From positions 186,001 through 250,000 of the forward strand of contig NZ_AFWV01000011.1 in the NCBI RefSeq assembly GCF_000223985.1: a DNA stretch of 64,000 nucleotides. Reading direction: 5' to 3'. The position numbers and the translations under genes were made by a program. How positions within the stretch are numbered: the first letter of the stretch is position 1; each line of letters begins with the position of its first letter. Of this stretch, positions 1-28,199 are shown piece after piece. Origin of the DNA: Thiocapsa marina 5811. GTDB lineage: Bacteria; Pseudomonadota; Gammaproteobacteria; Chromatiales; Chromatiaceae. The notes under the pieces were generated by a model that had not been told where the DNA came from, ran no database searches, and worked only from the letters and a program-made list of their open reading frames with translations.

Positions 1-864
1 CTGGAAACCGCGTCGATCCATGCCGGGGAGGCCGCTGCCAGCCTGCGCCATTACCTCGAGGGTCTGGAGGTCGATCCGGCCGCCCTCGAAGCGGTCGAGA
101 CCCGGATCGCACAGATTCACGACCTGGCGCGGAAATTCCGCGTCCTGCCCGTCGAGCTGCCGGACGCCTTAGTCGCGCGTGAGGCGGAGCTGGAGACGCT
201 CGAGCAAGCCGATCTGCGCCTGGGCGATCTGCGCGCGTCACGCGACGCCGCGCTGCATGACTTTCTGGAGCAAGCACGCGCGCTCGGCGAAGCGCGCAAC
301 GAGGCCGCAGAGCGCCTGAACCGAACGGTGACGGATGCGATGCAGCAGCTCGGGATGGCGGGCGGTCATTTCGCCGTAGAGATCGAAGCACTTCCCCCCG
401 AGCGTGCCGGCTCGGGCGGGCTCGAGCGCATCGCCTTTCTGGTCAGCGCAAACCCCGGTCAACCGCTGCAACCGCTCGCAAAGGTCGCCTCGGGCGGGGA
501 GCTCTCGCGGATCAGTCTCGGCATTCAGGTCGCGACCGCCGAGTGCGGAAGTGTCCCGACGCTGGTATTCGACGAGGTCGATGTCGGCATCGGCGGCGGT
601 GTCGCGGAGATCGTCGGGCGTCTGCTGCGCCGACTCGGCGACGCGCGCCAGGTGCTCTGCGTGACCCATCTCCCCCAAGTGGCCGCGCAAGCCCACCACC
701 AGCTGCGGGTCCGCAAGGAGAGCCTCGACGGCCAGACCTACACCCGCATCGAGACCCTCGACGCCGATGCCCGGGTCGACGAGATCGCCCGCATGCTCGG
801 CGGCACCAAGATCACGGCACGCACCCGCGACCACGCCTGCGAGATGCTCGGCTTGCCGGAGTGA
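1..864 (+). CDS. recN: RecN DNA repair ATPase, C-terminal part (5' end outside window)
   Basis: The frame is open from base 1, so only the last 287 residues of an SMC-like protein of normally about 555 residues are present. RecN acts in recombinational repair of double-strand breaks. Visible family marks are a coiled-coil segment (residues 1-105 of the visible part), the ABC signature ASGGELSRI near residue 163, the Walker B stretch VFDEVDVGIGG near 190, and the H-loop CVTHLPQVAA near 220. The C-terminus ends in a normal RecN tail. The stop at 862-864 is followed by non-coding sequence. The gene is intact as far as can be seen. Confidence 0.95.
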   Translation: METASIHAGEAAASLRHYLEGLEVDPAALEAVETRIAQIHDLARKFRVLPVELPDALVAREAELETLEQADLRLGDLRASRDAALHDFLEQARALGEARNEAAERLNRTVTDAMQQLGMAGGHFAVEIEALPPERAGSGGLERIAFLVSANPGQPLQPLAKVASGGELSRISLGIQVATAECGSVPTLVFDEVDVGIGGGVAEIVGRLLRRLGDARQVLCVTHLPQVAAQAHHQLRVRKESLDGQTYTRIETLDADARVDEIARMLGGTKITARTRDHACEMLGLPE

Positions 865-1064
865 TAGGGGGTAAAGATCGGTTCAGAAACACGTCACGCA
901 ACTCAACGAGAGAGTGCTTTTGTGACGGTTGTCGTTGTCGACGGCTCCTGCCGCCCCTGGGAAACAAGACGCGCAACGGATCGAATGATTGCGTTCCGAA
1001 CCGCAGCTAAACCAATTTTTAAGAGCCCTGAGCCCGATCCACGGACGATCCGCGATTCACTGCC

Positions 1065-1110
1065 CACCTTTCACCTTTCACCTTTCACCTTTCACCTTTC
1101 ACCTTTCACC
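1065..1110. repeat. Heptanucleotide tandem repeat (CACCTTT)6 plus CACC
   Basis: Six perfect copies of CACCTTT and a partial seventh lie 25 bp upstream of the start codon of the epimerase gene and just before its AGGAG ribosome-binding site. The repeat lies in the leader, not in the coding region, if the start at 1135 is right. A 7-bp unit is prone to slipped-strand length change. Confidence 0.9.
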
Positions 1111-1134
1111 GACAAAGAATTCAGGAGTAGACGC

Positions 1135-2142
1135 ATGAAAGTCATGGTGACCGGCAGCGCCGGTTTTATCGGCTCAGCCCTGTCTTTACGCCTCCTCGCA
1201 CGCGGCGACGAGGTGATCGGAATCGACAATCTGAACGACTACTACGATGTCGGACTCAAAGAGGCACGTCTCGCCCGTACCTTGCCCTTCGACGGCTTCC
1301 GTGAGGAGCGCGTCGATATCGAGGACGGTGCACGCATGCGCGAGCTTTTCGCCCTGCACCGTCCGGATCGGGTCGTGCACCTCGCGGCCCAAGCCGGCGT
1401 GCGCTACTCGATCGAAAACCCGATGGCCTACATCAACACCAACCTGGTCGGCTTCGCGCACATCCTGGAAGGCTGCCGGGATGTCGGCGTCGAGCACCTG
1501 GTCTATGCCTCGAGCAGCTCGGTCTACGGCGCCAACACCGCCATGCCCTTCTCGATCCATCACAACGTCGATCATCCCCTGAGCCTCTACGCCGCCAGTA
1601 AGAAGGCCAACGAGCTCATGGCACACACCTACAGCCATCTGTATCGCATCCCCACCACCGGTCTGCGCTTCTTCACCGTCTACGGGCCCTGGGGACGGCC
1701 GGACATGGCGCTCTTCAAGTTCACCCGCGCCATCCTCGCCGGCGAGCCGATCGACGTCTTCAACTACGGCAAACACCGTCGCGACTTCACCTTCGTCGAC
1801 GACATCGTGGAAGGGGTCATCCGCGTCCTGGATCGGGTGCCGAGCGGGGATCCGAGCTGGTCCGGCGCACAGCCCGATCCAGCGACCAGTCAAGGGCCTT
1901 ACCGCATCTACAACATCGGCAACAACAAGCCGGTCGAGCTGATGGAATACATCGCCTTCCTGGAAGAGGCCCTGGGTCGCAAGGCGCAGATGAACCTGCT
2001 GCCACTGCAACCCGGCGATGTGCCGGACACCTATGCGGATGTCACCGACCTGGTGCGCGACACCGGCTACTGCCCGGATACCCCGGTCGGGGAAGGCGTG
2101 GCGCGTTTCGTGGAGTGGTATCGGGGGTTCTACCGCGTCTAA
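1135..2142 (+). CDS. NAD-dependent epimerase, UDP-glucuronate 4-epimerase type
   Basis: A 335-residue extended SDR protein. The N-terminus [13 protein letters not shown] holds the GxxGxxG NAD site. An SSSSVYG strand, YAASKKANE (Tyr-x3-Lys catalytic pair near residue 153) and [15 protein letters not shown] are typical of the CapI/LpsL group that interconverts UDP-glucuronate and UDP-galacturonate for surface polysaccharides. ATG 1135 was chosen because AGGAG lies 9 bp before it and the NAD motif starts immediately. The frame stays open upstream to about 922, but that part reads through a simple repeat. The stop TAA (2140-2142) is formed by the left end of a dispersed repeat. Substrate specificity is inferred. 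Confidence 0.88.
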
Positions 2143-2235
2143 ACCGCTTCTAAACCGCGTCTCGGGGCGCATGCGTTGTCCTAGCGGATGATCGGCATGA
2201 AAACCACCGGCGAGCTCGGCAGTAACGCGGTTTAG
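2139..2235. repeat. Element A of the 86-bp TTAAACCGCG inverted-repeat family
   Basis: The core is 2150-2235 (86 bp) with perfect 11-bp ends CTAAACCGCGT and ACGCGGTTTAG. An extra partial left end (CTAAACCGCT) at 2139-2148 overlaps the stop codon of the epimerase gene. Ends and size match elements B, C and D. The interior is only weakly similar to the others. Confidence 0.8.
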
Positions 2236-2303
2236 GTGATTTTTCGTCTGTTCGGGCACGGCACCCGGATCGCCGCGTTGCATTCGATTCGAGGATCCAA
2301 AGC

Positions 2304-3515
2304 ATGGCCCGTGCACCCAAGATCGACATGGCCGAGGTCACCCGCCTCACCCGCGAAGGGCGGCTTCAAGAGGCGATGGCCTTGCTGCGCGGCGCAACAC
2401 GCGATGCGCCCGCAGCGCCCGGATCGGATCGCGGAAGAACCGGCTCGGCGCCCGATTCCGATCGCGACCCGACCGCCGAAGAGGATTCGGCCGAGCATCG
2501 GAGGATCCCCGGAATGCCGGAGATCCCGCCGGCGCTGCACGGACTGCTTGATCGGATGAAGCAAGGGATCGGCGCGCACCTGCCGGGGCAGGTCGCCCGC
2601 TCCCCGAGCCAACGCAAGCCGGCGGCACTCCCCGACGGGGCGCGATTCGAGGAGCATCTCTATGCCGACGCGGCGGGCACGCTCGTCTACAAGCTCTATG
2701 TCCCGAGCGGCTACCGCAAGCAGCCGCTGCCCCTCGTGGTGATGCTGCACGGCTGCAACCAGTCGCCCGACGATTTCGCCGCCGGTACCCGGATGAACAG
2801 CCTGGCCGAGCAGGAGTTGTTCCTGGTCGCCTATCCGGCGCAGTCACTCTCGACCAGCGCAACCAAATGCTGGAGCTGGTTCAACCCCGAAGACCAGCAG
2901 CGCGGTCGCGGCGAGCCTGCACTGATTGCCGGCATCACCCGCGAGATCATGCGTCACTTCACGGTGGATCCCGATCGCGTCTACATCGCCGGACTCTCCG
3001 CCGGCGCAGCGGCCGCCGCGATCATGGGGGCCACCTACCCGGACCTCTATGCCGCGATCGGCATGCACTCAGGACTGGCTTACGGGGCCGCCGACGACAT
3101 GGCATCGGCACTCGCGGCGATGCGCCAGGGCGGGACGCCCACGACCTTCGCCGATCAGCGACATCACGGACCCGACGGCAGGGTACCCTTGGTCCCGACC
3201 ATCGTCTTCCACGGTGATTCCGACATCACGGTCAACCCGGTCAACGCCGATCAGGTCATCGCCGCTTCTCCGGGGGCCACGCAGTTACGCGAAACGCGCA
3301 TTCCGGGTGAATCGGCCGGGGGCATCCGCTACACCCGCAGGCTCTACACCGACGAGAACGGTCGCGCGCCGCTGGAGCAGTGGATCCTGCACGGCGCAGG
3401 GCACGCTTGGTCGGGCGGCAGCCCCGACGGCTCCTATACCGAGCCGCGCGGGCCGGACGCCAGCCGGGAGATGCTGCGGTTCTTCATGCAGCACGCCCGC
3501 AACGCCGCAACCTGA
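2304..3515 (+). CDS. PHB-depolymerase-family (LpqC/Esterase_phd) alpha/beta hydrolase
   Basis: A 403-residue protein with a Pro/Arg-rich N-terminal extension (about 1-115) before an esterase domain of the poly(3-hydroxybutyrate) depolymerase type. The oxyanion region LHGCNQ lies near residue 149, the nucleophile elbow GLSAG near 231, the acid in HGDSD near 303 and the histidine in GHAWSGG near 366, so the triad looks complete. No signal peptide is evident, so an intracellular depolymerase or a feruloyl/acetyl-xylan-like esterase role is possible. GAGG stands 8 bp before ATG 2304. Its last codons form the left arm of a perfect hairpin. Substrate is not determined by sequence alone. Confidence 0.85.
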   Translation: MARAPKIDMAEVTRLTREGRLQEAMALLRGATRDAPAAPGSDRGRTGSAPDSDRDPTAEEDSAEHRRIPGMPEIPPALHGLLDRMKQGIGAHLPGQVARSPSQRKPAALPDGARFEEHLYADAAGTLVYKLYVPSGYRKQPLPLVVMLHGCNQSPDDFAAGTRMNSLAEQELFLVAYPAQSLSTSATKCWSWFNPEDQQRGRGEPALIAGITREIMRHFTVDPDRVYIAGLSAGAAAAAIMGATYPDLYAAIGMHSGLAYGAADDMASALAAMRQGGTPTTFADQRHHGPDGRVPLVPTIVFHGDSDITVNPVNADQVIAASPGATQLRETRIPGESAGGIRYTRRLYTDENGRAPLEQWILHGAGHAWSGGSPDGSYTEPRGPDASREMLRFFMQHARNAAT

Positions 3516-3549
3516 GCGCGGTTGCGCTCAGGTTGCGGCGTTGCGGGCG
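3496..3549. repeat. Perfect 25-bp-stem hairpin overlapping the esterase stop codon
   Basis: The left arm is 3496-3520, the loop GGTT is 3521-3524 and the right arm is 3525-3549, with no mismatch. The left arm is the last codons and stop of the esterase gene; the right arm is an exact inverted copy. There is no T-tract afterwards. It may act as a terminator or mRNA 3'-end stabiliser. Confidence 0.9.
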
Positions 3550-3692
3550 ATTCGAATAGACCTTTTGCGGCACGAACCGGACCGGCTTATGCCGCCTGTG
3601 ATCAGCGGTCGGTTCTCAGCGATCGGAAGGGGCGTATTCACTTGCCCTGGAGCGTGCTGATGCCGAACCCTGCGAGGCACAAAGTGCTCTTC

Positions 3693-3778
3693 TTAAACCG
3701 CGTCCCCGCTGAGTGGCGTGGATGCACCAAACGTCCAACTCACGCGAAAGTGAGCATCTCGCTCTGGACGCGGTTTAG
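3693..3778. repeat. Element B of the 86-bp inverted-repeat family
   Basis: 86 bp with ends TAAACCGCGTCC (3694-3705) and GGACGCGGTTTA (3766-3777). Reverse-complemented it aligns without gaps to element C (6293-6378) at about 85% identity by eye, including an internal CTCAC/GTGAG hairpin. It abuts the 3' end of rdgC, whose stop codon lies 2 bp beyond it. Confidence 0.9.
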
Positions 3779-3780
3779 GT

Positions 3781-4776
3781 TCACTCGACCCACGGCGGCG
3801 GCTCCGCCGACGACGGTACGCTCACCGCGGGCGCCGGTTCGGTCTGCGGGATCGGGTCCGGCGTGCCGCCCGCATCCCCGTCGCCGACGAGGCCGAAGAT
3901 CGCGTCCAGCCGTGCGATCAATTCGCGCAGTTGCAGTGCGAGGATCGCGAGCTCGGCGTCCATGCGCGCCGCGGGCTCGAGGTCGCCGTCGTCGATCTCG
4001 TTGAGCAGGGCGTCTCCGACGCGCAGGCGTTTCAGCGACATGTCCTCGGCCAAGACGAAATCGAGCCGCTCGTCCCAGCTCAGGGCCAGCTTCAGCACCT
4101 GCTTGCCGACACGCAGATGGGCGAGGATCTCTTCGCTGCCGAGATCCTGCCCCCGACAGCGGATCAGGCTTGCGGTGTCGCTCACATCGCGCAGCTCGCA
4201 GGCATCGCCGATCTGGAAATCGCTCGGCGCATCGCCGTTCAACAGCCAGCCGGTCATCACCTTCGGCGGCTCCATCCGAGGTGCGGGGGGCCGAGCCGGA
4301 AGGGTCTCGATGGTCTCGCGCAGCAGCGAGATCACGTCCTCGGCTTGCCGGTCGCTCCCGGCGTCCACCACCAGCCAACCCGCCTCGGTGTCGACGTAGA
4401 GAAGCGTGCGGCGCGAGCGGGTAAAGGCCCGCGGGAGCATCTCGGCCATGATCTGCTCGCGCAGCCGACGCCGCTCCGCGCGGCCCACGTCGCGGGCCTC
4501 CGCCGTCTCCAGGTCATTCACCCGCTCCTCGAGCGCCTCGGCGACCGCGGCCGAGGGAAGCAGGCGCTCCTGCTTGCGCGCGCAGATCAGGAAACAGCCC
4601 GAGACCGCATGAACGAGTGCGGTGGAGCCATCGCCGAGCGGCGCCGACCAGCCCATCGTCGTGGTCTCGAGCGGGCCGCAGGGCCGAAAGCGACGCTCGT
4701 CGAGACGGGCCTCGAGCGCGTCGGCGTCCAGACCGAACGGGCGTCCCAGTCGATACAGTCGTACATTCTTGAACAT
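3781..4776 (-). CDS. rdgC: Recombination-associated protein RdgC
   Basis: 331 residues, slightly longer than the E. coli protein (303). RdgC is a ring-shaped DNA-binding protein that inhibits RecA. The N-terminus MFKNVRLYRLGRPF, the segment RRFRPCGPLE, the central ARKQERLLPSAAVAEAL and the domain with TLLYVDTEAGWLVVDA are characteristic. The C-terminal 30 residues are acidic/proline-rich and extend beyond the usual end. The gene starts 239 bp from the divergent CorB-like gene, so the two promoters probably share that gap. Its stop is immediately followed by repeat B. Confidence 0.93.
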   Translation of the reverse strand: MFKNVRLYRLGRPFGLDADALEARLDERRFRPCGPLETTTMGWSAPLGDGSTALVHAVSGCFLICARKQERLLPSAAVAEALEERVNDLETAEARDVGRAERRRLREQIMAEMLPRAFTRSRRTLLYVDTEAGWLVVDAGSDRQAEDVISLLRETIETLPARPPAPRMEPPKVMTGWLLNGDAPSDFQIGDACELRDVSDTASLIRCRGQDLGSEEILAHLRVGKQVLKLALSWDERLDFVLAEDMSLKRLRVGDALLNEIDDGDLEPAARMDAELAILALQLRELIARLDAIFGLVGDGDAGGTPDPIPQTEPAPAVSVPSSAEPPPWVE

Positions 4777-5015
4777 CTTCAGCCCCGGTCAAAAAGGCCG
4801 GGATTATGACCGAGCCTCGCCGAACTGCAAGCGCCGGGTCGCGCTGTCGGCGCAACGGGTCACCGATCCGCGCGAGCGACCGGGATGGCGTTGGGCCGTC
4901 GGAATGCGGATGCGCATCGACCGGAAAACACGGTTTCACGACGCGCCCGGCATACCCTGTCGAAGCCGGTATACTGTGTCCCAAGATCGACCCATCGCCA
5001 AGCTCGGAATCCAAG

Positions 5016-6296
5016 GTGGATGAACTCTCGCTGCCCGGCCTCTTTCTCGCGTTAGTGCTGTTGCTCATGCTCTCGGCCTTCTTCTCCGGATCGGAGACGG
5101 CCCTGCTCACCATCAACCGCTACAAGCTCAAACATCTGGCGGACGGCGGCCACCGCGGCGCCCGCATGGCCCGGGCGCTGCTGGAGCGACCCGATCGCTT
5201 GATCGGACTCATCCTGCTCGGGAACAACTTCGTCAACATCATGGCCTCGTCCTTGGCGACCATCATCGCCTTGCGCCTCGGCGGCGAGGCAGCGATCGGT
5301 ATCGCCGCCGGGCTTCTGACATTGGTCATTTTGATCTTCGCCGAGGTCGCGCCCAAGACCTATGCCACGCTGCATCCGGAGCGTCTCGCCTTTCCGGCGG
5401 CCTATGTCTACAAACCCTTGCTCAAACTGCTCTATCCGATCGTGTGGTTCGTCAATCTCTTCACCAACGGGCTGCTCCGCCTGATGGGGATCACGACGGA
5501 AGGCGCACCGGGCACGGCGCTGAGCCGCGAGGAGCTGCGGACCGTGGTCAGCGAGGCCGGTGCCATGATCCCGGAGCGCAGCCGCTCCATGCTGCTCGGC
5601 ATCCTGGATCTCGAGCGCGCCACGGTCGAGGACATCATGATCCCGCGCAACGAGGTGGAAGGGATCGACATCCAGGACAGCGAGGACGAGATCCTGCACG
5701 CAATCGGCAACTCCAGCTACACGCGGATGCCGCTCTTCGACGGCAGTATCGACAATGTAATCGGCGTCTTTCACGCCAAGCATGCCCTGCATGCACTCCT
5801 CGAGCAGGGCCTGGGCAAGGACCATCTGCGTGCGATCGCGCGCGAGCCCTACTATGTCCCCGAAGGCACGCCGCTCTATCAGCAGCTGCTCAATTTCCAG
5901 CGCGGCAAGCGGCGCGTCGGTCTGGTGGTCGACGAATACGGCGATTTTCTCGGACTCATCACACTGACCGATCTGCTCGAAGAGATCGTCGGTGAGTTCA
6001 CGACCGACCCGGCAGACAGCATCCCGGAGATCCATCGCGCCGAAGACGGCAGTCTCTTGGTCGACGGCAGCATCACCGTGCGTGACCTCAACCGGGCGCT
6101 GCGCTGGACGCTTCCCACCGACGGCCCCCGGACGCTCAACGGACTAATCCTCGAATACCTCGAGACCATCCCCGAGCCCGGCACCAGTCTCAAGCTGCAC
6201 GATCACCCGATCGAGATCCTGCAAACCGCCGACAACGGGGTGAAGACCGTGAAGGTCGTCACCCGTCCGGCCCGCAAGGCGCGGGCGCTCGTTTAA
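5016..6296 (+). CDS. HlyC/CorC-family membrane protein with DUF21 and CBS domains (CorB/YfjD-like)
   Basis: With GTG 5016 as start the protein has 426 residues, the usual CorB length. The N-terminal DUF21 domain (about 1-180) has hydrophobic segments and the conserved FFSGSETALLTINRYKLKHL region. A CBS pair follows (about 195-330, with DIMIPRNEVEGID and VGLVVDEYGDFLGLIT), then a CorC_HlyC domain. The family is linked to Mg2+/Co2+ homeostasis. No ATG precedes the conserved region closely; upstream codons read through poorly conserved sequence, so GTG is the best choice although its RBS is weak. The stop TAA 6294-6296 lies in repeat C. Confidence 0.88.
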   Translation: MDELSLPGLFLALVLLLMLSAFFSGSETALLTINRYKLKHLADGGHRGARMARALLERPDRLIGLILLGNNFVNIMASSLATIIALRLGGEAAIGIAAGLLTLVILIFAEVAPKTYATLHPERLAFPAAYVYKPLLKLLYPIVWFVNLFTNGLLRLMGITTEGAPGTALSREELRTVVSEAGAMIPERSRSMLLGILDLERATVEDIMIPRNEVEGIDIQDSEDEILHAIGNSSYTRMPLFDGSIDNVIGVFHAKHALHALLEQGLGKDHLRAIAREPYYVPEGTPLYQQLLNFQRGKRRVGLVVDEYGDFLGLITLTDLLEEIVGEFTTDPADSIPEIHRAEDGSLLVDGSITVRDLNRALRWTLPTDGPRTLNGLILEYLETIPEPGTSLKLHDHPIEILQTADNGVKTVKVVTRPARKARALV

Positions 6297-6378
6297 ACCG
6301 CGTCCGGAGCGAGATGCTCACCGTCGAGTGAGCTCGACGTTTGGTGTATCTACGGCCCTTAGCGGGGACGCGGTTTAT
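6293..6378. repeat. Element C of the 86-bp inverted-repeat family
   Basis: Ends TAAACCGCGTCC (6294-6305) and GGACGCGGTTTA (6366-6377). It is the inverted homologue of element B. The TAA stop of the CorB-like gene is its first three conserved bases. An internal GCTCAC/GTGAGC stem is visible. Confidence 0.9.
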
Positions 6379-6399
6379 AACGGTATATCTTTTAATCTC

Positions 6400-6486
6400 T
6401 TGAACCGCCCAGACTCCGACGCCCGTCAAGTCTGCCGGGGCCGATCGCATCCAAAAGCACCGCGTACCGCACCGAGCGCGGTTCAA
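6400..6486. repeat. Element F (second subtype) of the inverted-repeat family, beside radA
   Basis: 87 bp with diverged ends TTGAACCGC (6400-6408) and GCGGTTCAA (6478-6486). The interior resembles element E (9510-9597) more than B/C/D. It lies 5 bp from the radA stop, so elements C and F together fill the gap between the convergent CorB-like gene and radA. Confidence 0.7.
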
Positions 6487-6491
6487 TCGCC

Positions 6492-7853
6492 TCAAACCCC
6501 GTCGAGGGCCTCCGCGAGGGTCTTCACGGCCGTGATCTCCAAGCCCTCCACGCCCTCTTTGGGAACATTCCCGACCGGTACGATGGCCCGACGCACACCG
6601 TGCTTGGCTGCCTCGCGTAACCGATCCGGACCATTCGGGACCGGACGCACCTCGCCCGAGAGGCCGACCTCGCCGAAGACCGCGAGATCCAACGGAAGCG
6701 GCCGGTCCCGATAGCTCGACAGCACCGCCATCACGAGCGGCAGATCGACGGCAGTCTCGGTGATCCGCACCCCGCCGACCACGTTGACGAAGACGTCCTG
6801 GTTGAACATGGCCACCCCGCCGTGACGGTGCAGCACCGCCAGCAGCATCGACAGGCGGTTGCCGTCGAGACCCAAGGCCACTCGACGCGGATTGGCAAGC
6901 GGGCTCTCGTCCACAAGCGCCTGCACCTCGACCAAGAGCGGGCGCGTCCCCTCGCGGGTCACCATGACCAGACTGCCCGGGACCGCCTCGTCGTGGCGCG
7001 AGAGAAAGATCGCAGAGGGGTTCTTCACCTCGCGCAGGCCGCGGTCGCCCATCGCGAAGACCCCGAGCTCGTGCACCGCGCCGAAGCGATTCTTCACCGA
7101 GCGCACCAGGCGAAAGGCGCCGCCGGGCTCGCCCTCGAAATAGAGCACGGTGTCGACCATGTGCTCCAACACTCGCGGTCCGGCGAGCGTGCCGTCCTTG
7201 GTCACATGGCCGACGAGGAAGACCACCGTGTCCCGCTGCTTGGCGAATCGGACCAGCTGCGCCGCCGCCTCGCGCACCTGCGAGACAGAGCCCGGGGCGG
7301 ACTGCAGCGCATCGGTATAGAGGGTCTGGATGGAATCGACGACCAGCACCCGCGGCCGCTCCTGCGACGCGGCCGCGAGGATCGACTCGACGTTGGTCTC
7401 GGCAAGCAGACGGATGCCCTCGCCCGCCAGTCCGAGCCGATGGGCGCGTAGCCCGATCTGCTGGGGCGACTCCTCGCCGCTGACATAGAGCACCGGCAGG
7501 TGGCGTGCAAGCGAGGCACTCGCCTGCAGCAAGAGGGTCGACTTGCCGATCCCCGGATCCCCGCCGATCAAGACCACCGAGCCCGTCACCAGGCCTCCGC
7601 CCAACACGCGATCGAGCTCGCCGATCCCGCTCTGGATGCGCACCCGATCTTCGGGGCTGACCTCGGCCAAGCTCTCCACGCGCGGTGACTCGGCCGCGCC
7701 CGCGTAGCCGCCGCGCACGGCGGGACGTGCGATCTCCGCGGTCTCCACCATGCTGTTCCAGGCCCCGCAGTCCGGGCACTGACCCGCCCACTTCGGCTGA
7801 CGCGCACCGCAGGCGTTGCAGACATAGCTGCTGCGGGTCTTTCGGTTGCTCAT
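6492..7853 (-). CDS. radA: DNA repair protein RadA
   Basis: 453 residues, standard length. RadA is a RecA-like ATPase that drives branch migration in recombination. An N-terminal zinc finger (Cys12, 15, 26, 29) is followed by the Walker A GGDPGIGKST near residue 96, the RadA-specific KNRFG near 254, and a Lon-protease-like C-terminal domain. It ends in a typical TLAEALDGV tail. It is transcribed toward the CorB-like gene. The 285-bp gap upstream separates it from the divergent cfa-like gene. Confidence 0.96.
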   Translation of the reverse strand: MSNRKTRSSYVCNACGARQPKWAGQCPDCGAWNSMVETAEIARPAVRGGYAGAAESPRVESLAEVSPEDRVRIQSGIGELDRVLGGGLVTGSVVLIGGDPGIGKSTLLLQASASLARHLPVLYVSGEESPQQIGLRAHRLGLAGEGIRLLAETNVESILAAASQERPRVLVVDSIQTLYTDALQSAPGSVSQVREAAAQLVRFAKQRDTVVFLVGHVTKDGTLAGPRVLEHMVDTVLYFEGEPGGAFRLVRSVKNRFGAVHELGVFAMGDRGLREVKNPSAIFLSRHDEAVPGSLVMVTREGTRPLLVEVQALVDESPLANPRRVALGLDGNRLSMLLAVLHRHGGVAMFNQDVFVNVVGGVRITETAVDLPLVMAVLSSYRDRPLPLDLAVFGEVGLSGEVRPVPNGPDRLREAAKHGVRRAIVPVGNVPKEGVEGLEITAVKTLAEALDGV

Positions 7854-8032
7854 CTGAGAGGTCCGTTCGGATCAATGCACACGCGCCATTGTAGGCCGAT
7901 TCGGCTCGGCGAAGCCGAAGACGGGTTGACCGTCCGGCGCGCTCGGGGTGAAACGGCCCCGAGCCGATCTCACCCCCGCGCGCTGCGCCGTTCGGGAGCG
8001 CTCTTCGCGATCCTGTTCGCCCGGCACGACCC

Positions 8033-8061
8033 TTGACCGAAACCCTCTCGAACACTACTTT
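8033..8061 (+). promoter_or_regulatory. Possible sigma-70 promoter for the cyclopropane synthase gene
   Basis: TTGACC (8033-8038) and TACTTT (8056-8061) are spaced by 17 bp, about 75 bp upstream of the start codon. The -35 is 5/6 and the -10 only 3/6 of consensus, so this is tentative. Confidence 0.35.
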
Positions 8062-8138
8062 TTTCCACGTAAAGACTTTGAATTCCCCGTCCTTTAGACG
8101 TCGGCGGCAACGCCCGACCAAGCGCGAGGATATGCAAC

Positions 8139-9407
8139 ATGAAGTCTGACAAGAACCCATTATCGAACGGCGCCGCATCGGTCGATCGGGGCGTATGGAC
8201 AGACACCGACAGCGTATGGCCGATCGAGACCTGGCTGTTCAATCGATTCATGCAGCTCATCGGGGAACCCGCCATCAGCGTCGTCTTCTGGGATGACCGG
8301 GAGCACTACCGGTGTCCTCGGGCCAACCCGGTCGCACGCATGCGCTTCGCCGACCGATCCACCTTTTGGCGACTCTTCGCCAATCCGAACCTGGAATTCG
8401 GGGACGGCTACAGCTCGGGGCGCATCCGCATCGAGGGGGACTTGGTCGCCTTCATCGAAGCGCTCTACGAGGCCAAGATCAAGCGGACCCGGCCCGGCGT
8501 CCTCCAGCAGTTCGTCAAGCGCGGTTTCGTCCGACCGCGACGCAACAGCCTTACGGGCTCGCGGGACAACATCCACCATCACTACGACCTGGGAAACGAC
8601 TTCTATCGGCTCTGGCTCGACGAAGAGATGGCCTATACCTGTGCCTATTTCGCCGATCCGAGCGTCACCCTCGAGCAGGCCCAGGCCGCGAAGCTCGACC
8701 ATATCGCGCGCAAGTTACAGCTGCGACCCGGCGAGGAGGTGGTCGAGGCCGGCTGCGGTTGGGGCGGGCTGGCACGGCACTTCGCGCGTCGTTACGGCGT
8801 CAGAGTCCGGGCCTACAACATCTCGCCCTCGCAGATCGCCTATGCGCGCGAGCGGGCAAAGGCCGAGGGGCTGGCCGACCGGATCGACTATATCGAGGAC
8901 GACTACCGCAATATCCAAGGGACCTACGATGCCTTCGTCTCGGTCGGCATGCTCGAGCATGTCGGTGCCGAGCACTATGCGACCCTGGGTCAGGTTGTCG
9001 ATCGCGTCCTCAAGGAGGACGGACGCGGCCTGATCCATTCGATCGGCCAAATCCGCCCCGAGCCGCCCAGCGCCTGGAACGAACGGCGCATCTTCCCAGG
9101 GGCCAACCCTCCGACGCTGCGCCGGATGATGGACATCTTCGAGGGTCCGGGTCTCTCGGTGGTCGACGTGGAGAACATCCGACTCCACTACGCCAAGACG
9201 ATCGAGCATTGGCTGGCCCGTTACGAGAAACATGAAGCGGAGGTCCGCGAGATCTTCGACGACTTCTTCGTCCGGGCCTGGCGGCTCTATCTGGCAGCGT
9301 CGATCGCCAGCTTCCGCGCCGGCGCTTTGGAGCTCTATCAGGTTCTATTCTCTCGTCCGGGAAAGAACGACATGGCCTGGACACGTGCTCACCTCTATTG
9401 GGATTAA
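8139..9407 (+). CDS. cfa: Cyclopropane-fatty-acyl-phospholipid synthase family methyltransferase
   Basis: 422 residues. These enzymes transfer a methylene group from S-adenosylmethionine to double bonds of membrane phospholipid acyl chains. The SAM site VVEAGCGWGGLARHFA lies near residue 205. YDLGNDFYRLWLDEEMAYTCAYF (about 150) and EHVGAEHYATLG (about 275) are family landmarks. The N-terminal 130 residues resemble the lipid-binding region. GAGGA lies 8 bp before ATG 8139. The TAA stop (9405-9407) is inside repeat D. Related SAM enzymes such as mycolic-acid-type or phosphobase methyltransferases are less likely. Confidence 0.88.
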   Translation: MKSDKNPLSNGAASVDRGVWTDTDSVWPIETWLFNRFMQLIGEPAISVVFWDDREHYRCPRANPVARMRFADRSTFWRLFANPNLEFGDGYSSGRIRIEGDLVAFIEALYEAKIKRTRPGVLQQFVKRGFVRPRRNSLTGSRDNIHHHYDLGNDFYRLWLDEEMAYTCAYFADPSVTLEQAQAAKLDHIARKLQLRPGEEVVEAGCGWGGLARHFARRYGVRVRAYNISPSQIAYARERAKAEGLADRIDYIEDDYRNIQGTYDAFVSVGMLEHVGAEHYATLGQVVDRVLKEDGRGLIHSIGQIRPEPPSAWNERRIFPGANPPTLRRMMDIFEGPGLSVVDVENIRLHYAKTIEHWLARYEKHEAEVREIFDDFFVRAWRLYLAASIASFRAGALELYQVLFSRPGKNDMAWTRAHLYWD

Positions 9408-9489
9408 ACCGCGTCCAGAGCGGCACGCGTCGTTTTCGCTGTGCGTTTGGCTTCGGAGATATTCTCGATCCCGGTGAGACGCGGTTTAA
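9404..9489. repeat. Element D of the 86-bp inverted-repeat family
   Basis: Perfect 12-bp ends TTAAACCGCGTC (9404-9415) and GACGCGGTTTAA (9478-9489). The first 19 bp equal those of reverse-complemented B, while the interior has diverged. The cfa-like gene's stop codon is within the left end. Confidence 0.88.
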
Positions 9490-9509
9490 AATTTCAGATT
9501 GTTAATGCC

Positions 9510-9597
9510 TTAAACCGCGCCAAATCCGAGAGCCGTCGGAGCCGATCCAGCCAAATCACTCCAACAAACGACGCATATCGCAATGGGCGCGGTTTAA
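9510..9597. repeat. Element E (second subtype) of the inverted-repeat family
   Basis: 88 bp with perfect 12-bp ends TTAAACCGCGCC (9510-9521) and GGCGCGGTTTAA (9586-9597). It follows element D after 20 bp, the same order as C followed by F. Confidence 0.85.
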
Positions 9598-9659
9598 GCG
9601 TCGGCGCATCCGGCGGGCGGTGAGCGACCCGACAGAGGAGATCCTCGCGAGGACGGCCC

Positions 9660-10676
9660 ATGATCAAAACGAACGTCATCATCGTCGGCGGCGGGCCTGC
9701 GGGCTCGTCCTGCGCATGGCAGCTGCGCCGTCGCGGTGTCGACTGCCTGATCCTGGACAAGGCGGTCTTCCCGCGACCCAAGCTCTGCGCCGGTTGGATC
9801 ACGCCCGAGGTCGTCGCGGATCTCGAGATGGACATCGCGGCCTATCCGCATCGCTTCCTGACCTTCGAGGTGACCCGTGCACACCTGTTCGGCATCGGTC
9901 TGACGATGCGATCGCCGCAGCACTCGATCCGCCGCATCGAGCTCGACCACTGGCTGCTCGAGCGCTCGGGGGCCGAGGTCATCACCCACCAGGTCAAGCG
10001 CATCGAGCGAACGCCGAACGGCTACCGCATCGACGACCGCTTCGAATGCGCGGCCCTCGTCGGTGCCGGCGGCACGGCATGCCCGGTGTATCGATCGCTG
10101 TTTCGCGAGATCAACCCACGGGCAAGGGCGCTGCAAGTCGCCGCGCTGGAGCAGGAGCTGCCCTTCACCTGGCAGGATCGTGACTGTCATCTGTGGTTCT
10201 TCGAGAAGGGCCTGCCGGGCTACAGTTGGTATGTCCCCAAACAGGATGGCTATCTGAATCTCGGCGTCGGGGGCATGACGCAGCGGATGCAGGATACAGG
10301 CGCGAGCATTCACCGACATTGGGAACACTTCGTCACCTCCTTGCGCCGGCGCAAGCTGATCGACGCGGGGTTGGCGCTCGAACCCCGGGGCTATTCCTAT
10401 TACCTGCGCGACGGGGTAGAGAAAATCCGGCACGAGAACGCCTTCCTGGTCGGCGATGCCGCCGGGCTCGCCACCCGCGACATGGCCGAAGGTATCGGTC
10501 CGGCGATCCGCAGCGGGATCCTGGCGGCCAACGCCATCGCCGACGGCGGCGAATACAGCCTGGAATCGGTCTCGCCCTACAGCTTGGGTGCAGGTCTGCC
10601 GCGCCGTGCGTTGGAATACGGGCTGTCGAGGCGGTGGGCCGCGAGTCCGGCCGCCAAGGTGCATGATCCAGGTTAG
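9660..10676 (+). CDS. FAD-dependent oxidoreductase, geranylgeranyl-reductase-like
   Basis: 338 residues. The N-terminal dinucleotide site IIVGGGPAGSSCAWQLRRRG, PRPKLCAGWITPEV (about 38-52) and the second FAD motif FLVGDAAGLATRDMAEGIGPAIRSG (about 262) are typical of the GG-reductase/halogenase-like group. The family reduces isoprenoid chains of chlorophylls, quinones or lipids, or acts on unknown substrates. The protein is shorter than ChlP/BchP, so it is unlikely to be the photosynthesis reductase. It overlaps no neighbour; the DUF808 gene starts 34 bp later and may be co-transcribed. Confidence 0.78.
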   Translation: MIKTNVIIVGGGPAGSSCAWQLRRRGVDCLILDKAVFPRPKLCAGWITPEVVADLEMDIAAYPHRFLTFEVTRAHLFGIGLTMRSPQHSIRRIELDHWLLERSGAEVITHQVKRIERTPNGYRIDDRFECAALVGAGGTACPVYRSLFREINPRARALQVAALEQELPFTWQDRDCHLWFFEKGLPGYSWYVPKQDGYLNLGVGGMTQRMQDTGASIHRHWEHFVTSLRRRKLIDAGLALEPRGYSYYLRDGVEKIRHENAFLVGDAAGLATRDMAEGIGPAIRSGILAANAIADGGEYSLESVSPYSLGAGLPRRALEYGLSRRWAASPAAKVHDPG

Positions 10677-10710
10677 AATTCGCTCACCTCAACCCAAGCG
10701 ACGAGATCCC

Positions 10711-11658
10711 ATGGCCGGGGCCAGCCTGCTTACACTGCTCGACGATATCGCAACCGTCCTCGACGACATCTCGGTGATGACCAAGGTCGCCGCGCGCAAG
10801 ACCGCGGGTGTCCTCGGAGACGATCTGGCGTTGAATGCCCAGCAGGTCCTCGGGATACGGGCCGAGCGCGAGCTGCCGGTGGTTTGGGCCGTCGCCCTCG
10901 GGTCGCTCAAGAACAAACTCATCCTGATTCCGGCGGCACTCCTCATCAGCGCCGTGGCACCCTGGGCCATTACGCCGCTCCTCATGCTCGGCGGGGCCTT
11001 TCTCTGTTACGAGGGTTTCGAGAAGCTGGCCCACACGTTCCTGCACGCCGAGGAGGAAGATGACCGTCATGCGGAGCTCACGCGGACGCTTCTGGATCCG
11101 AGTGTCGACATGGCGGCCTTCGAGAAAGACAGGATCCGCGGTGCGATCCGCACCGATTTCGTCCTCTCCGCCGAGATCATCGTCATCACCCTCGGGATCG
11201 TCGCCGGCGCCACATTCGGCGTGCAGGTGGCGGTTTTGATCGGCGTGGGGCTTTTGATGACTGTCGGCGTCTACGGACTGGTCGCGGGCATCGTCAAGAT
11301 GGACGACGCCGGCTTCTACCTGCAGCAACGCACGGGCGAGGATCTCGGCGCCCGATTCGCGCGGCGTCTCGGCGCCCTGCTCCTCGCGGCCGCACCGCGT
11401 CTGATGCGCGTCCTTGCGGTGGTCGGAACAGCCGCCATGTTTCTGGTCGGGGGCGGGATCCTGGTCCACGGGACCCCGGGGACGCACGACATCCTGCATC
11501 TCCTGAGTCACGGCGCCGCCGCGGTTCCCACGATCGGCCCCGTCCTGGAGGCACTGACATCCCCGCTGTTCAACGCGCTCGTCGGTGTGCTTGCCGGCGC
11601 CGTCATCCTCGGTGCCATCACCGCGGGCTCACGCATCGTCGGTGCTTTCCGAACCTGA
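10711..11658 (+). CDS. DUF808 (YedI-like) multi-spanning membrane protein
   Basis: 315 residues from ATG 10711, which gives the conserved start MAGASLLTLLDDIATVLDDISVM. VAARKTAGVLGDDLALNAQQV, the segment GGAFLCYEGFEKLAH and about six hydrophobic segments between 70 and 310 mark the DUF808 family, whose function is not known. The frame is open upstream into the previous gene, but the conserved start and DUF808 length favour 10711. The last helices end at GSRIVGAFRT. It lies in line with its plus-strand neighbours. Confidence 0.88.
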   Translation: MAGASLLTLLDDIATVLDDISVMTKVAARKTAGVLGDDLALNAQQVLGIRAERELPVVWAVALGSLKNKLILIPAALLISAVAPWAITPLLMLGGAFLCYEGFEKLAHTFLHAEEEDDRHAELTRTLLDPSVDMAAFEKDRIRGAIRTDFVLSAEIIVITLGIVAGATFGVQVAVLIGVGLLMTVGVYGLVAGIVKMDDAGFYLQQRTGEDLGARFARRLGALLLAAAPRLMRVLAVVGTAAMFLVGGGILVHGTPGTHDILHLLSHGAAAVPTIGPVLEALTSPLFNALVGVLAGAVILGAITAGSRIVGAFRT

Positions 11659-15187: not shown

Positions 15188-17386
15188 ATGGCGCAATCGG
15201 ATCAATCGCTCGATGGCCTGAGCAGCGAGGAGCGCAAAAAGGTCCAGGAGTTGATGCAAAAGGACGCGAAGGCCGAGCGACGGGTCCGCGGACCCTGGCT
15301 TTGGCTGACCTCGCTGCTGGGTGCGGCGATGGTGTTGATCTATTTCTACGGCGCCGGGTTTCAAGCGCTCGACACCCAGTATCACCTGGGCGTCTATGTC
15401 CTCATCACCTTCGTTCTGGTCTTCCTGCTTTATCCTGCGGGCGGGCGCTTCGCCGTCGGGGCCATGTCGGTCTGGACCGCCGGGATGCTTGCGGTCTTGG
15501 TCAGCTGCTTCTGGGTCTTCGACTCGCCCACCGCCTTCTACGACCAGATCACGCTTTTTCGCGAGACCTGGGAATACGACGGCCTCGCCAAGGCCTGGGC
15601 CGATGACTTCGGCGCACTGCGGACCTCGCTGATCCTGATCCTGCCCTTCGCCGTCGTCCTGTTGCCGCTGGACCAATGGCTCGCCCGGCGCTTCCGCCAA
15701 AGCCCCACCGCGAGCGACGTCCTGATGGCCGCGATCGTCGCCGGCACCGTGATCTATTGGATCAGCCAGTTCGAGGCCCTGAACTACCGCGCCGGTGCGG
15801 AGAATCAGGTCGACATGCTGGTGAGCATCATCGGGTTGATCTTGTCGCTCGAGGTCTGCAGACGGGTGCTCGGTTGGTCGATCACCCTGATCGGCATCGG
15901 CATGATCGCCTTTGCACTGTTCGGGCCTTACCTGCCCGAGCTCTTCGCGCATCGCGGCTTCCGTTTCGAACGGCTGGCGACCTCGCTCTTTCTCACCACC
16001 AACGGTGTGTTCGGGGTGATGGCGAGCGTACTCGCCACCTATGTGATCCTCTTCATCTTCTTCGGCGCCTTCCTACAGAAGTCCGGAGCCGGCAAGTTCT
16101 TCATCGATCTGCCGTTGGCGTTGACCGGACGCTCCACCGGCGGACCCGCCAAGGTCGCGGTCGTCTCCTCGGCGCTGTTCGGCTCGGTCTCCGGCAGCGC
16201 GATCGCGAACACCGTCTCCTCGGGCTCCTTCACGATTCCGATGATGAAGCGCGCCGGATTCAAGCCGCACGTCGCGGGCGCGATCGAGCCGGCTGCATCC
16301 ATCGGCGGCATGTTCCTGCCGCCGATCATGGGTGCGGGCGGCTTCCTCATGGCGGAGCTGACCGGGATGCCCTACTCGCAGATCATGCTCCTGTCGGTCG
16401 GCCCGGCCATTCTGTATTTCCTCTCGGTCTTCTTCATGGTCCATTTCGAGGCCAAGAAGCAGGGCCTGGTCGGTATCCCCGGCGAGACGATCCCGGACTG
16501 GCGACCGGTGCTCAAGAGCGGCTGGTTCTACGCATTGCCGTTGGTGATCATCACGGCCTTGATGCTGATGGGGCGTTCGCCCGGCAATGCCGCCTTCTGG
16601 GCCACACTGTCCTGCATCCTGGTGAGCTGGGTGCATCCGAGCACGCGGATGGGACCGCGCGCGATCTGGGAGGCGATCCAGCTGGGTGCGCGCAACACCC
16701 TGATCATCGGGGCAACGCTGGGCGTGATCGGCATCATCGTCGGCGTCATCTCGTTGACCGGGATGGGGCTGAAGTTCTCGGATCTCGTGATCTCGATGGC
16801 CGGCGACAGTCTGTTCCTGGCCCTGGTGCTGATCGCGATCGCCTCCTTGGTGCTCGGCATGGGCGTGCCGGTGACCGCCGCCTATCTGATCGTCGCGGTG
16901 CTCGCGGTGCCGGCGCTCGGGCACTTCGGTGTCGCGGCCATCGCTGCGCACATGATCGTCTACTGGTTGTCTCAAGACTCCAACATCACGCCTCCCGTGT
17001 GTGTCGCGGCCTATGCGGGGGCGGCCATTGCGGGGTCGGACCCCTGGAAAACCGGCTGGACGGCGTTTCGATTCGCGAAGATGCTCTATGTGATGCCGCT
17101 TCTGTTCGCCTACGTCCCGGCCATTCTCCTGGACGGAACGACCTGGGAGATCGTGAGTGCATTCTTCTCGGCGACCTTGGGAACGATCGCGTTCGGTGCC
17201 TTCGCCATGGGCTTCCTGCGCCGCAGTACGACGCTCGTCGAATGGTTGGTGTTGGGGATTGCGACCTTCCTGCTCTATTGGCCGGGATTCGTCACGGACG
17301 CCGCCGGACTGGCGCTGGTTGCACTGGTCTGGTGGCTGCAACGCGATGCCGCGGCGACACCTTTAAGTCCCGTGGCGAGGACATAA
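15188..17386 (+). CDS. TRAP transporter permease, fused 4TM/12TM (DctQM-type, TAXI class)
   Basis: 732 residues with a charged cytoplasmic N-terminus (1-38) and about 18 hydrophobic segments. The fused small and large membrane subunits are typical of TAXI-type tripartite ATP-independent periplasmic transporters that import organic acids using ion gradients. GSVSGSAIANTVSSGSFTIPMMKRAGF (near 335) and the EPAASIGGMFLPPIMGAGGFLMAE stretch are the DctM-like hallmark. Its binding protein is the TAXI gene at 18118, separated by a UspA gene. The substrate cannot be read from sequence. Confidence 0.92.
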   Translation: MAQSDQSLDGLSSEERKKVQELMQKDAKAERRVRGPWLWLTSLLGAAMVLIYFYGAGFQALDTQYHLGVYVLITFVLVFLLYPAGGRFAVGAMSVWTAGMLAVLVSCFWVFDSPTAFYDQITLFRETWEYDGLAKAWADDFGALRTSLILILPFAVVLLPLDQWLARRFRQSPTASDVLMAAIVAGTVIYWISQFEALNYRAGAENQVDMLVSIIGLILSLEVCRRVLGWSITLIGIGMIAFALFGPYLPELFAHRGFRFERLATSLFLTTNGVFGVMASVLATYVILFIFFGAFLQKSGAGKFFIDLPLALTGRSTGGPAKVAVVSSALFGSVSGSAIANTVSSGSFTIPMMKRAGFKPHVAGAIEPAASIGGMFLPPIMGAGGFLMAELTGMPYSQIMLLSVGPAILYFLSVFFMVHFEAKKQGLVGIPGETIPDWRPVLKSGWFYALPLVIITALMLMGRSPGNAAFWATLSCILVSWVHPSTRMGPRAIWEAIQLGARNTLIIGATLGVIGIIVGVISLTGMGLKFSDLVISMAGDSLFLALVLIAIASLVLGMGVPVTAAYLIVAVLAVPALGHFGVAAIAAHMIVYWLSQDSNITPPVCVAAYAGAAIAGSDPWKTGWTAFRFAKMLYVMPLLFAYVPAILLDGTTWEIVSAFFSATLGTIAFGAFAMGFLRRSTTLVEWLVLGIATFLLYWPGFVTDAAGLALVALVWWLQRDAAATPLSPVART

Positions 17387-17457
17387 ACCGAATCCGGTGC
17401 TGTATGCGGCATGTGTCGGAGTGGCTTGGCCGTGCCAGCGTTGCTCACAATCCCGGC

Positions 17458-27890: not shown

Positions 27891-28199
27891 TCACCTTAGA
27901 ATTCAAACGAAGGGCCGGGGTCTCGTCGACCCAACGGCCGGGCACGAGGATTCTCCGCGGTAGCGCGGATCCCTGTCCATGAGAAAACCGGCCTTTGCCC
28001 CTCAAGCGACGGGTCATTGCGCAATCCACCTCTCCGGCTGATCCTGATCGCCGCCGGAAAATGGCTATAAAGACTCTTTCAGGGCCTCGCTCATTCAACC
28101 GCGCCCGGTACGGTATACGTCATGCGTTGGACGGGTTTGGCCGCGCCAGCTCCAGCAGGATGACCACCCAATCGTTCTCGCGCTGTAATCCTGTGTCGA
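27891..28199. other. 309-bp intergenic region
   Basis: Lies upstream of the DAHP synthase gene and downstream of the PD-(D/E)XK-like gene. A short minus-strand open frame overlapping the end of the next gene was judged unsupported. No RNA or repeat recognised. Confidence 0.5.

Follow-up and report, generated by a model that had tools for sequence, protein, structure and literature searches.

A probable new family of composite, TA-targeting miniature inverted-repeat transposable elements enriched at stop codons in Thiocapsa marina and its relatives

Introduction

Short mobile repeats that carry no gene have been described in several bacteria. RUP of Streptococcus pneumoniae is a 107-bp miniature inverted-repeat transposable element (MITE) present in about 110 copies, with the insertion sequence (IS) IS630-Spn1 as its proposed mobiliser (PMC2229807; PMC3049150); members of the IS630/Tc1-mariner family, such as IS630 and ISY100, insert at TA and duplicate it (PMC2170065); and the Correia elements of Neisseria belong to a class of short, TA-ended, non-autonomous elements (PMC2229807). 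The BOX elements of the pneumococcus are modular small repeats, parts of which are also found alone (PMC3049150), and the dsrA- and hupL-type MITEs of Thiomargarita nelsonii have no clear parent IS in ISfinder (PMC4853749). In this study, we analyzed a 64,000-nucleotide stretch of DNA from Thiocapsa marina 5811 (hereafter the window; positions 186,001 to 250,000 of contig NZ_AFWV01000011.1, that is, C52:186001-250000 of its own genome, G000, 5.59 Mb in 62 contigs), containing palindromic repeats with TAAACCGCG ends that very probably represent a new composite, non-autonomous MITE family with a TA target and a mobile unit of ~195 bp.

Like RUP, the Thiocapsa element is small and devoid of genes, has terminal inverted repeats, uses a TA-containing target and is intergenic (PMC2229807; PMC3049150). 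However, RUP is one AT-rich unit whose ends match those of a resident IS630, whereas the Thiocapsa element consists of two hairpins around a spacer, is mostly GC-rich and strongly enriched at stop codons, and has no IS with matching ends among the loci scanned. With the IS630/Tc1-mariner family it shares insertion at TA with duplication of the TA, and it over-uses CTAG, for which IS630 reportedly has a preference, going by the title of Tenzen and Ohtsubo 1991. It differs from that family in having no transposase gene and in its AACCGCG ends, which are unlike those of the readable resident IS630s. The Correia elements are likewise short, TA-ended and non-autonomous, but their end sequence is presumably different, and no double-hairpin unit is known to us among them. 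The T. nelsonii MITEs also reside in a sulfur-oxidizing host and likewise lack a clear parent IS, but they end in TATAG direct repeats, or combine direct repeats of 10 bp with an inverted repeat of 19 bp (PMC4853749). BOX is comparable as a modular small repeat with modules that are also solitary; its modules, however, are boxA, boxB and boxC, in place of two hairpins each bearing full terminal repeats.

Results

The composite found in the window and elsewhere is ~195 bp long. Its first hairpin, of the C type, measures mostly 87-88 bp and its second, of the T type, mostly 86-87 bp; the polar, AT-rich spacer between them is usually 20-21 bp long, and all four hairpin ends bear TAAACCGCG. Most hairpins, when oriented by the AT-rich flank, are of either the C type (..GCGCC..) or the T type (..GCGTC..), and the two commonly face one another over the polar spacer, whose sequence resembles GATATTAAAAAATATAAAATT. 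Among 53 distinct composites with four exact ends, the spacer measures 15-22 bp (20-21 bp in 44) and the order is strictly CGCC followed by CGTC in 35. The 195-position composite profile matches its own reverse complement, so that the whole unit is a diverged palindrome; the outer ends of C and T are ~58% identical at positions 11-20 and ~51% at positions 21-30, compared with 41% and 35% for the inner ends, and the outer end of the composite comprises TAAACCGCGYCC plus an extension of ~30 bp. In 50 composites found by profile, the four ends are about equally intact, being perfect in 36, 34, 32 and 32 cases. As in a MITE, the ends are inverted, the element is short and no transposase gene is carried, 195 bp being too short for one.

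A first-pass annotation of the window had reported six copies of an 86-bp MITE-like family (2150-2235, 3693-3778, 6293-6378, 6400-6486, 9404-9489 and 9510-9597), all of which are located correctly. When each stretch was set against its own reverse complement, perfect terminal inverted repeats of 11, 9, 12 and 12 bp were obtained for 2150-2235, 6400-6486, 9404-9489 and 9510-9597, respectively, in line with the 9-12 bp reported, while 3693-3778 and 6293-6378 mismatch at the outermost base and then pair over TAAACCGCGTCC. The latter two, described as ~85% alike in opposite orientation, are 87% complementary over 84 nt, and the hairpin interiors are related within each of the two types (mean column identity 78% and 71% in the alignments). 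Each 86-bp hairpin is real, but the unit is often the double hairpin, which the annotation had halved: 6293-6486 and 9404-9597, both taken as two neighboring copies, are each one ~195-bp unit of hairpin, conserved spacer and hairpin. Moreover, confinement to 7.5 kb holds for the intact copies but not for two decayed pieces that a profile search revealed farther on. The features of the window are as follows.

2139-2149, no strand assigned: extra partial terminal repeat (CTAAACCGCTT) preceding the first copy, seen in the sequence
2150-2235, no strand assigned: single hairpin, a half element of unclear type (profile matches on both strands, 26 and 22 bits)
3693-3778, plus strand: single T-type hairpin (profile model positions 98-195, 65 bits)
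6293-6486, minus strand: composite, with C hairpin, spacer and T hairpin in minus-strand order (profile model positions 4-195, 148 bits)
6293-6378, minus strand: T-type hairpin of composite 6293-6486, the only part kept in the relative G001
6379-6399, minus strand: AT-rich spacer of composite 6293-6486, seen in the sequence
6400-6486, minus strand: C-type hairpin of composite 6293-6486, with diverged ends (TTGAACCGCGC / TTGAACCGCCC)
9404-9597, minus strand: composite (profile model positions 1-195, 149 bits)
9404-9489, minus strand: T-type hairpin of composite 9404-9597
9490-9509, minus strand: AT-rich spacer of composite 9404-9597
9510-9597, minus strand: C-type hairpin of composite 9404-9597
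17384-17445, plus strand: decayed C-type half fragment (profile; C52 203384-203445, model positions 2-62, E 1.6e-4)
28097-28154, plus strand: decayed C-type half fragment, also in G001 (profile; C52 214097-214154, model positions 4-60, E 1.5e-6)

Pairs of TAAACCGCG and CGCGGTTTA at hairpin spacing number five in the window and zero in 100 first-order Markov windows, and TAAACCGCGYC with at most one mismatch occurs 16 times, against a shuffle mean of 2.58 and a shuffle maximum of 6; the true ends read Y-TA-AACCGCG, the outer Y being part of the target. In the whole of G000, the stricter pattern TTAAACCGCG..CGCGGTTTAA was found 133 times (reversed control, 0), so that the genome holds 133 exact-ended hairpins; further copies, whose absence would have refuted the first-pass annotation, are therefore present. 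When 16 sequences of G000 were compared with 80 named loci, five matched Thiocapsa records at 86-92% over 0.9-3.1 kb, in keeping with a Thiocapsa host. Merged profile matches in five sampled stretches amounted to 27, 28, 21, 33 and 28 in 257, 371, 280, 320 and 400 kb, respectively, and these 137 merged elements comprise 53 longer than 150 bp, 63 of 75-110 bp, 8 between and 13 shorter. Of the 210 genomes examined in the order, 20 contain exact pairs (8 of the 61 genera), as do 11 of 146 sampled genomes of the family, with the highest counts in G003 (285), G009 (213), G042 (203), G004 (149), G008 (144) and G000 (133); among the matches listed, the pattern is found in Thiocapsa, Thiobaca, Thiocystis, Lamprocystis and other Chromatiaceae. 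Three genomes of the same genus (G002, G007 and G010) contain 0 exact pairs, and a query with one composite found a single match, in G002, while G007 and G010 had none. Such patchiness is consistent with a mobile element that has been gained and lost.

Insertion takes place at YTAR with duplication of the TA. At one clean empty site, G001 contains 195 bp as ...CCGG-T-TA-[AACCGCG..CGCGGTT]-TA-G-GATG, whereas G000 reads ...CCGG-TTAG-GATG; at C52:137361, G000 is occupied while G001 and G009 are empty with TTAG; and at 215k:154335, G001 is occupied while G009 is empty with CTAA, plus a few further differences alongside. As for the window, the site of 3693-3778 is empty in G003, G004, G005, G008 and G009, and that of 6293-6486 in G002, G003, G004, G005 and G010; the insertion at 9404-9597 is shared with G001, its site being empty in G004 and G005; and G001 carries a full composite at the site of 2150-2235.

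Recent activity is evident in G009, where at least 40 composites are 97-100% identical over positions 1-195 or a few bases less, so that the unit has jumped recently in this genome; the best match of a young G009 copy in G000 is 91% identical. Of 40 G009 copies read at their flanks, 38 were resolved (2 having unclear ends), with 11 CTAG, 10 TTAG, 10 CTAA, 6 TTAA and 1 GTAA as targets; as two of the 38 have identical flanks (L404 and L409), the independent events are at most 37. YTAR accounts for 37/38 of these targets versus 19% of noncoding TA sites (p 3e-26), in a reading that leaves the outer bases free and has the TA itself demanded by the end pattern, and CTAG for 11/38 versus 4.4% expected. 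One recent copy is nested in an older element, having used the TA at its end as target, and two further ones have CGCGGT directly before the target. Only 3/38 lie inside genes, compared with 38% of YTAR sites. The many copies, the perfect ends, the empty sites with TA duplication and the burst in one relative bear out the description of the repeats as MITE-like and non-autonomous in the first-pass annotation.

The elements frequently coincide with stop codons. Of the 119 sampled elements that had one or both ends exact (18 further merged matches without an exact end being excluded from this count), 58 have a stop codon situated exactly at the element's first TAA or TGA (52 TAA and 6 TGA, the TGA stops occurring where the element end base has changed), while stop codons make up 13.1% (171/1301) of the noncoding YTAR outside elements. 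By gap type, the hits (57 altogether) are 22/34 in convergent gaps (expected 22.5%), 35/74 in tandem gaps (13.3%) and 0/10 in divergent gaps, with 1 element unassigned. When the flanks were rejoined for the 59 elements with both ends exact (the 60 others missing one end), 31 fell on a stop codon, 22 in intergenic DNA and 6 in a called gene, the YTAR share of this set being partly built in by the end pattern. The recent G009 set comprises 11 copies at a stop codon, 24 between genes and 3 within them. In the case of the window, the stop codon of a CNNM/CorC-like gene is the left TAA (6294-6296) of composite 6293-6486, and that of a cyclopropane-fatty-acid-synthase-like (Cfa-like) gene is the left TAA (9405-9407) of composite 9404-9597; at such sites, the duplicated TA followed by the element's first A yields TAA. 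The single hairpin at 3693-3778 lies between convergent polyhydroxybutyrate (PHB)-depolymerase-like and rdgC genes.

The rise in the stop-codon share from recent to sampled copies, together with the shortage inside genes, points to selection, to which some targeting may add. Active picking of stop codons by the enzyme, beyond the YTAR target and selection, is a doubtful alternative: an excess is already seen in the recent copies outside genes (11/35 versus 13.1%, p 0.004) and persists in convergent gaps, where promoters should not restrict insertion, but the recent copies are less enriched (11/38) than the all-age sample, whether counted on all 119 elements or on those with both ends exact, as selection predicts, and inspection by eye of the recent G009 sites revealed no common context beyond YTAR, no motif search having been made.

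Two of the single hairpins can be traced to composites. At 6293-6486, where G000 has the composite, G001 keeps the T hairpin joined straight to the right flank, without the spacer and the C half; at C52:165819, G001 has the composite, G000 retains its first hairpin only, and G009 is empty. Both half-losses fit removal of the spacer and one hairpin between direct repeats of CGCGGTTTA, for which slippage between these repeats would be a plausible route. It is improbable, by comparison, that the 86-bp hairpin moves as the true unit and that each pair stems from two separate insertions next to one another. Singles of 75-110 bp are common (15/27 merged elements on C52, and 63/137 in the five samples), every hairpin has perfect ends of its own, and a TA within the end of an old element can serve as a target, all of which such a unit would account for; nevertheless, both the length and the polarity of the spacer are conserved, C mostly precedes T, the copies of the recent burst match over (nearly) all of 1-195, albeit with a full composite as the query, and a precise loss of one hairpin together with the spacer accounts for the two singles above.

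We also regard a functional 3'-end RNA element (a terminator or mRNA stabilizer) retained by selection at gene ends as quite unlikely. The strong stop-codon excess would suit it, as would the stable single-strand folds of the six window copies (z -1.7 to -5.2), such folding being expected of any long inverted repeat. Alignments of 30 hairpins of each type were folded; the 219 distinct C and 183 distinct T copies had been reduced to 62 and 63 diverse picks, from which these were drawn. The C type is predicted to form short internal helices of 3 and 4 pairs, and a few of its pairs show compensatory changes in 1-2 of the 30 sequences; the terminal stem is paired in almost every row and hardly varies. 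The covariation terms, however, are just -0.47 (C) and -0.03 (T) kcal/mol, and changes on both sides affect 4/17 (C) and 1/9 (T) predicted pairs, in 1-2 sequences each and without a shuffle control. Furthermore, orientation in tandem gaps is nearly balanced (47 same versus 40 opposite), positions 1-11000 contain 6 terminator-like sites versus 5.5 in shuffles, and orthologous gene ends exist without whole elements. Promoter consensus sites in 1-11000 number 2 versus 1.4 in shuffles, and the window has 0 Rfam matches at the gathering score. With little covariation, no clear orientation bias and no Rfam match, the structural (RNA) alternative offered in the first-pass annotation is at best faintly suggested.

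For the mobilizing enzyme, transposase domains were searched, giving 51 matches to PF13358 (8 genomes), 83 to PF01797 (8), 93 to PF13340 (9), 36 to PF01609 (3), 8 to PF13701 (3 genomes; none above the cut-off) and 7 to PF13936 (5 genomes; one above the cut-off), with no match to PF13586 in three genomes; 30 loci each of the first four, 8 of PF13701, 7 of PF13936 and 13 further stretches were fetched. None of the 30 PF13358 loci and the 13 stretches (partly the same matches, with 10/13 G009 matches read) is bracketed by TAAACCGCG. The only transposase gene so bracketed in the 148 loci is at L358 of G003 (1253-3382), which was rejected as a parent: it belongs to an unrelated IS of 1.9 kb that has inserted into a composite's C hairpin, and the same IS occurs in G009 (L349, 93.7% over 1932 bp) without these ends. 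Solo end sites are present on one side of a few transposase loci (L342, L360 and weaker ones). The legible ends of the multi-copy resident IS630s are TATACCTC, TATACTCACC, TAGTACC and others, as opposed to AACCGCG in the element, so that of the RUP-type traits the TA duplication is found, but ends shared with a genomic IS630 are not. An IS of ~1.3 kb in G009 (L324 and L325; two copies, 99.9% identical), with a weak DDE_3 match and probably recently active, was also discarded, as it ends in AGGCGA and not in the element's sequence. Apart from this question, G138 (loci L294, L297, L299, L301 and L303-L323) gave 88 matches to one IS5-type transposase family, mostly with similar scores, two compared copies being 99.6% identical.

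A REP/REPIN-like origin, with palindromes mobilized by a RAYT (Y1 tyrosine transposase), is most implausible: the elements are indeed palindromic, paired, intergenic and numerous, and all 8 genomes searched have PF01797 matches, yet none of the 30 PF01797 loci scanned of the 83 is bracketed by element ends, the observed TA duplication is at odds with single-strand Y1 chemistry, and a separate GTAG-type palindrome in relatives is a better RAYT fit. REP/REPIN hairpins bear a GTAG/GGAG motif and adjoin a Y1 transposase, and the ends here are TAAACCGCG. The separate palindrome, GTAGGGGCGACTT(T/A)AGTCGCCC, is seen in the same intergenic regions of relatives (L127, L128 and L136; G009 and G004), and looks like a GTAG-type REP. 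An attC-like or integron site was rejected, as the ends do not seem to fit the attC core and insertions duplicate TA.

Other features were noted on the way. Doubled terminal repeats, with an extra partial TAAACCGC ahead of the element, are listed at four places (window 2139-2160, L004, L037 and L278) and are possibly scars of excision or nested insertion; in the window, the stop TAA (2140-2142) of an epimerase gene falls within the partial end 2139-2149. Direct TTTCACC heptamer repeats are situated closely upstream of the epimerase gene (1070-1110). The PHB-depolymerase-like gene, whose stop codon is at 3513-3515, ends within an inverted repeat (3494-3549) of 26 perfectly matching bp and a 4-nt gap, which is unrelated to the elements.

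Discussion

The family described above is a MITE family by structure and behavior, and IS630-like solely in its mode of action. In the predicted mechanism, the mobile unit, ~195 bp including the flanking target bases, consists of two related, diverged hairpins facing each other across the AT-rich spacer. An enzyme acting in trans, presumably a cut-and-paste DDE transposase of the IS630/Tc1-mariner type, may recognize the outer ends through the common TAAACCGCG and the weaker similarity over ~30 bp, and would place the unit at the TA of YTAR targets, duplicating that TA. As both ends of the element start with A, insertion into a TAA or TAG stop remakes TAA and the length of the gene is kept. 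Copies at stop codons would then persist while most others are lost, and later loss of the spacer and one hairpin between the CGCGGTTTA direct repeats would leave the 86-bp singles. By our inference, most of the excess at stop codons reflects selection and not targeting. More tentatively, the driver might be an unrecognized, perhaps single-copy, domesticated TA-specific transposase without matching ends, and the TA target with the leading A an evolved harmless-landing device, letting the transposon colonize stop codons and place a palindrome of 86-195 bp right behind many genes with their proteins unaltered; we offer this combination as a speculation with a low chance of being right.

Several observations weigh against a ~195-bp unit spread by such an enzyme and retained at stop codons. 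No parent-like transposase was found in the 148 loci scanned, even in the recently active G009 (rve, Transposase_mut, IS66, IS110, Tn3 and other families not having been searched). In two stretches of G000, with 8 and 7 composites, the identity to the nearest copy is 0.79 or less, computed within each fetched stretch, so that nothing there indicates recent activity. Of 34 directional calls of an empty site, most are too diverged at the junction to be read and are not independent. At C52:109355 and its counterpart in G009 (140k:238810), both occupied, the empty G001 reads CCCC-CG-AAC / TTCG where TTAG is expected, so that G001 has changed or lost this site. At the cfa site, G003 (L129) has a composite of other subtypes in the orientation opposite to that in G000, which requires two insertions or a replacement. 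Some single hairpins might have inserted as singles, as a mobile 86-bp hairpin would, a candidate being that at C52:137361, which faces an empty TTAG in two relatives; and at stop codons the order gene-C-T exceeds gene-T-C (36 versus 22), as a 3'-end RNA element might. Finally, insertions that G000, G001 and G009 have at orthologous sites do not count as independent, which means that the significance of the stop-codon excess in the sampled sets is overstated, and the genes were called with a home-made codon-usage caller, no annotation being used. We nevertheless consider the composite, non-autonomous MITE the best explanation by far.

In the open-licence literature, we found neither a description of this family nor a title on stop-codon regeneration by a MITE, nor any work joining Thiocapsa, Chromatiaceae or Chromatiales with MITE or REP, which is weak evidence of absence. 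If the present interpretation is true, the chemistry of this MITE family, in which TA duplication is combined with a leading A, would turn stop codons into safe landing sites, as seen in the several-fold excess there. G009, with its at least 40 near-identical copies and no recognized parent, is a defined place to seek the enzyme. As long palindromes are placed at gene ends in Thiocapsa and Thiobaca, effects on mRNA 3' ends may be tested by comparing occupied with empty orthologous sites.

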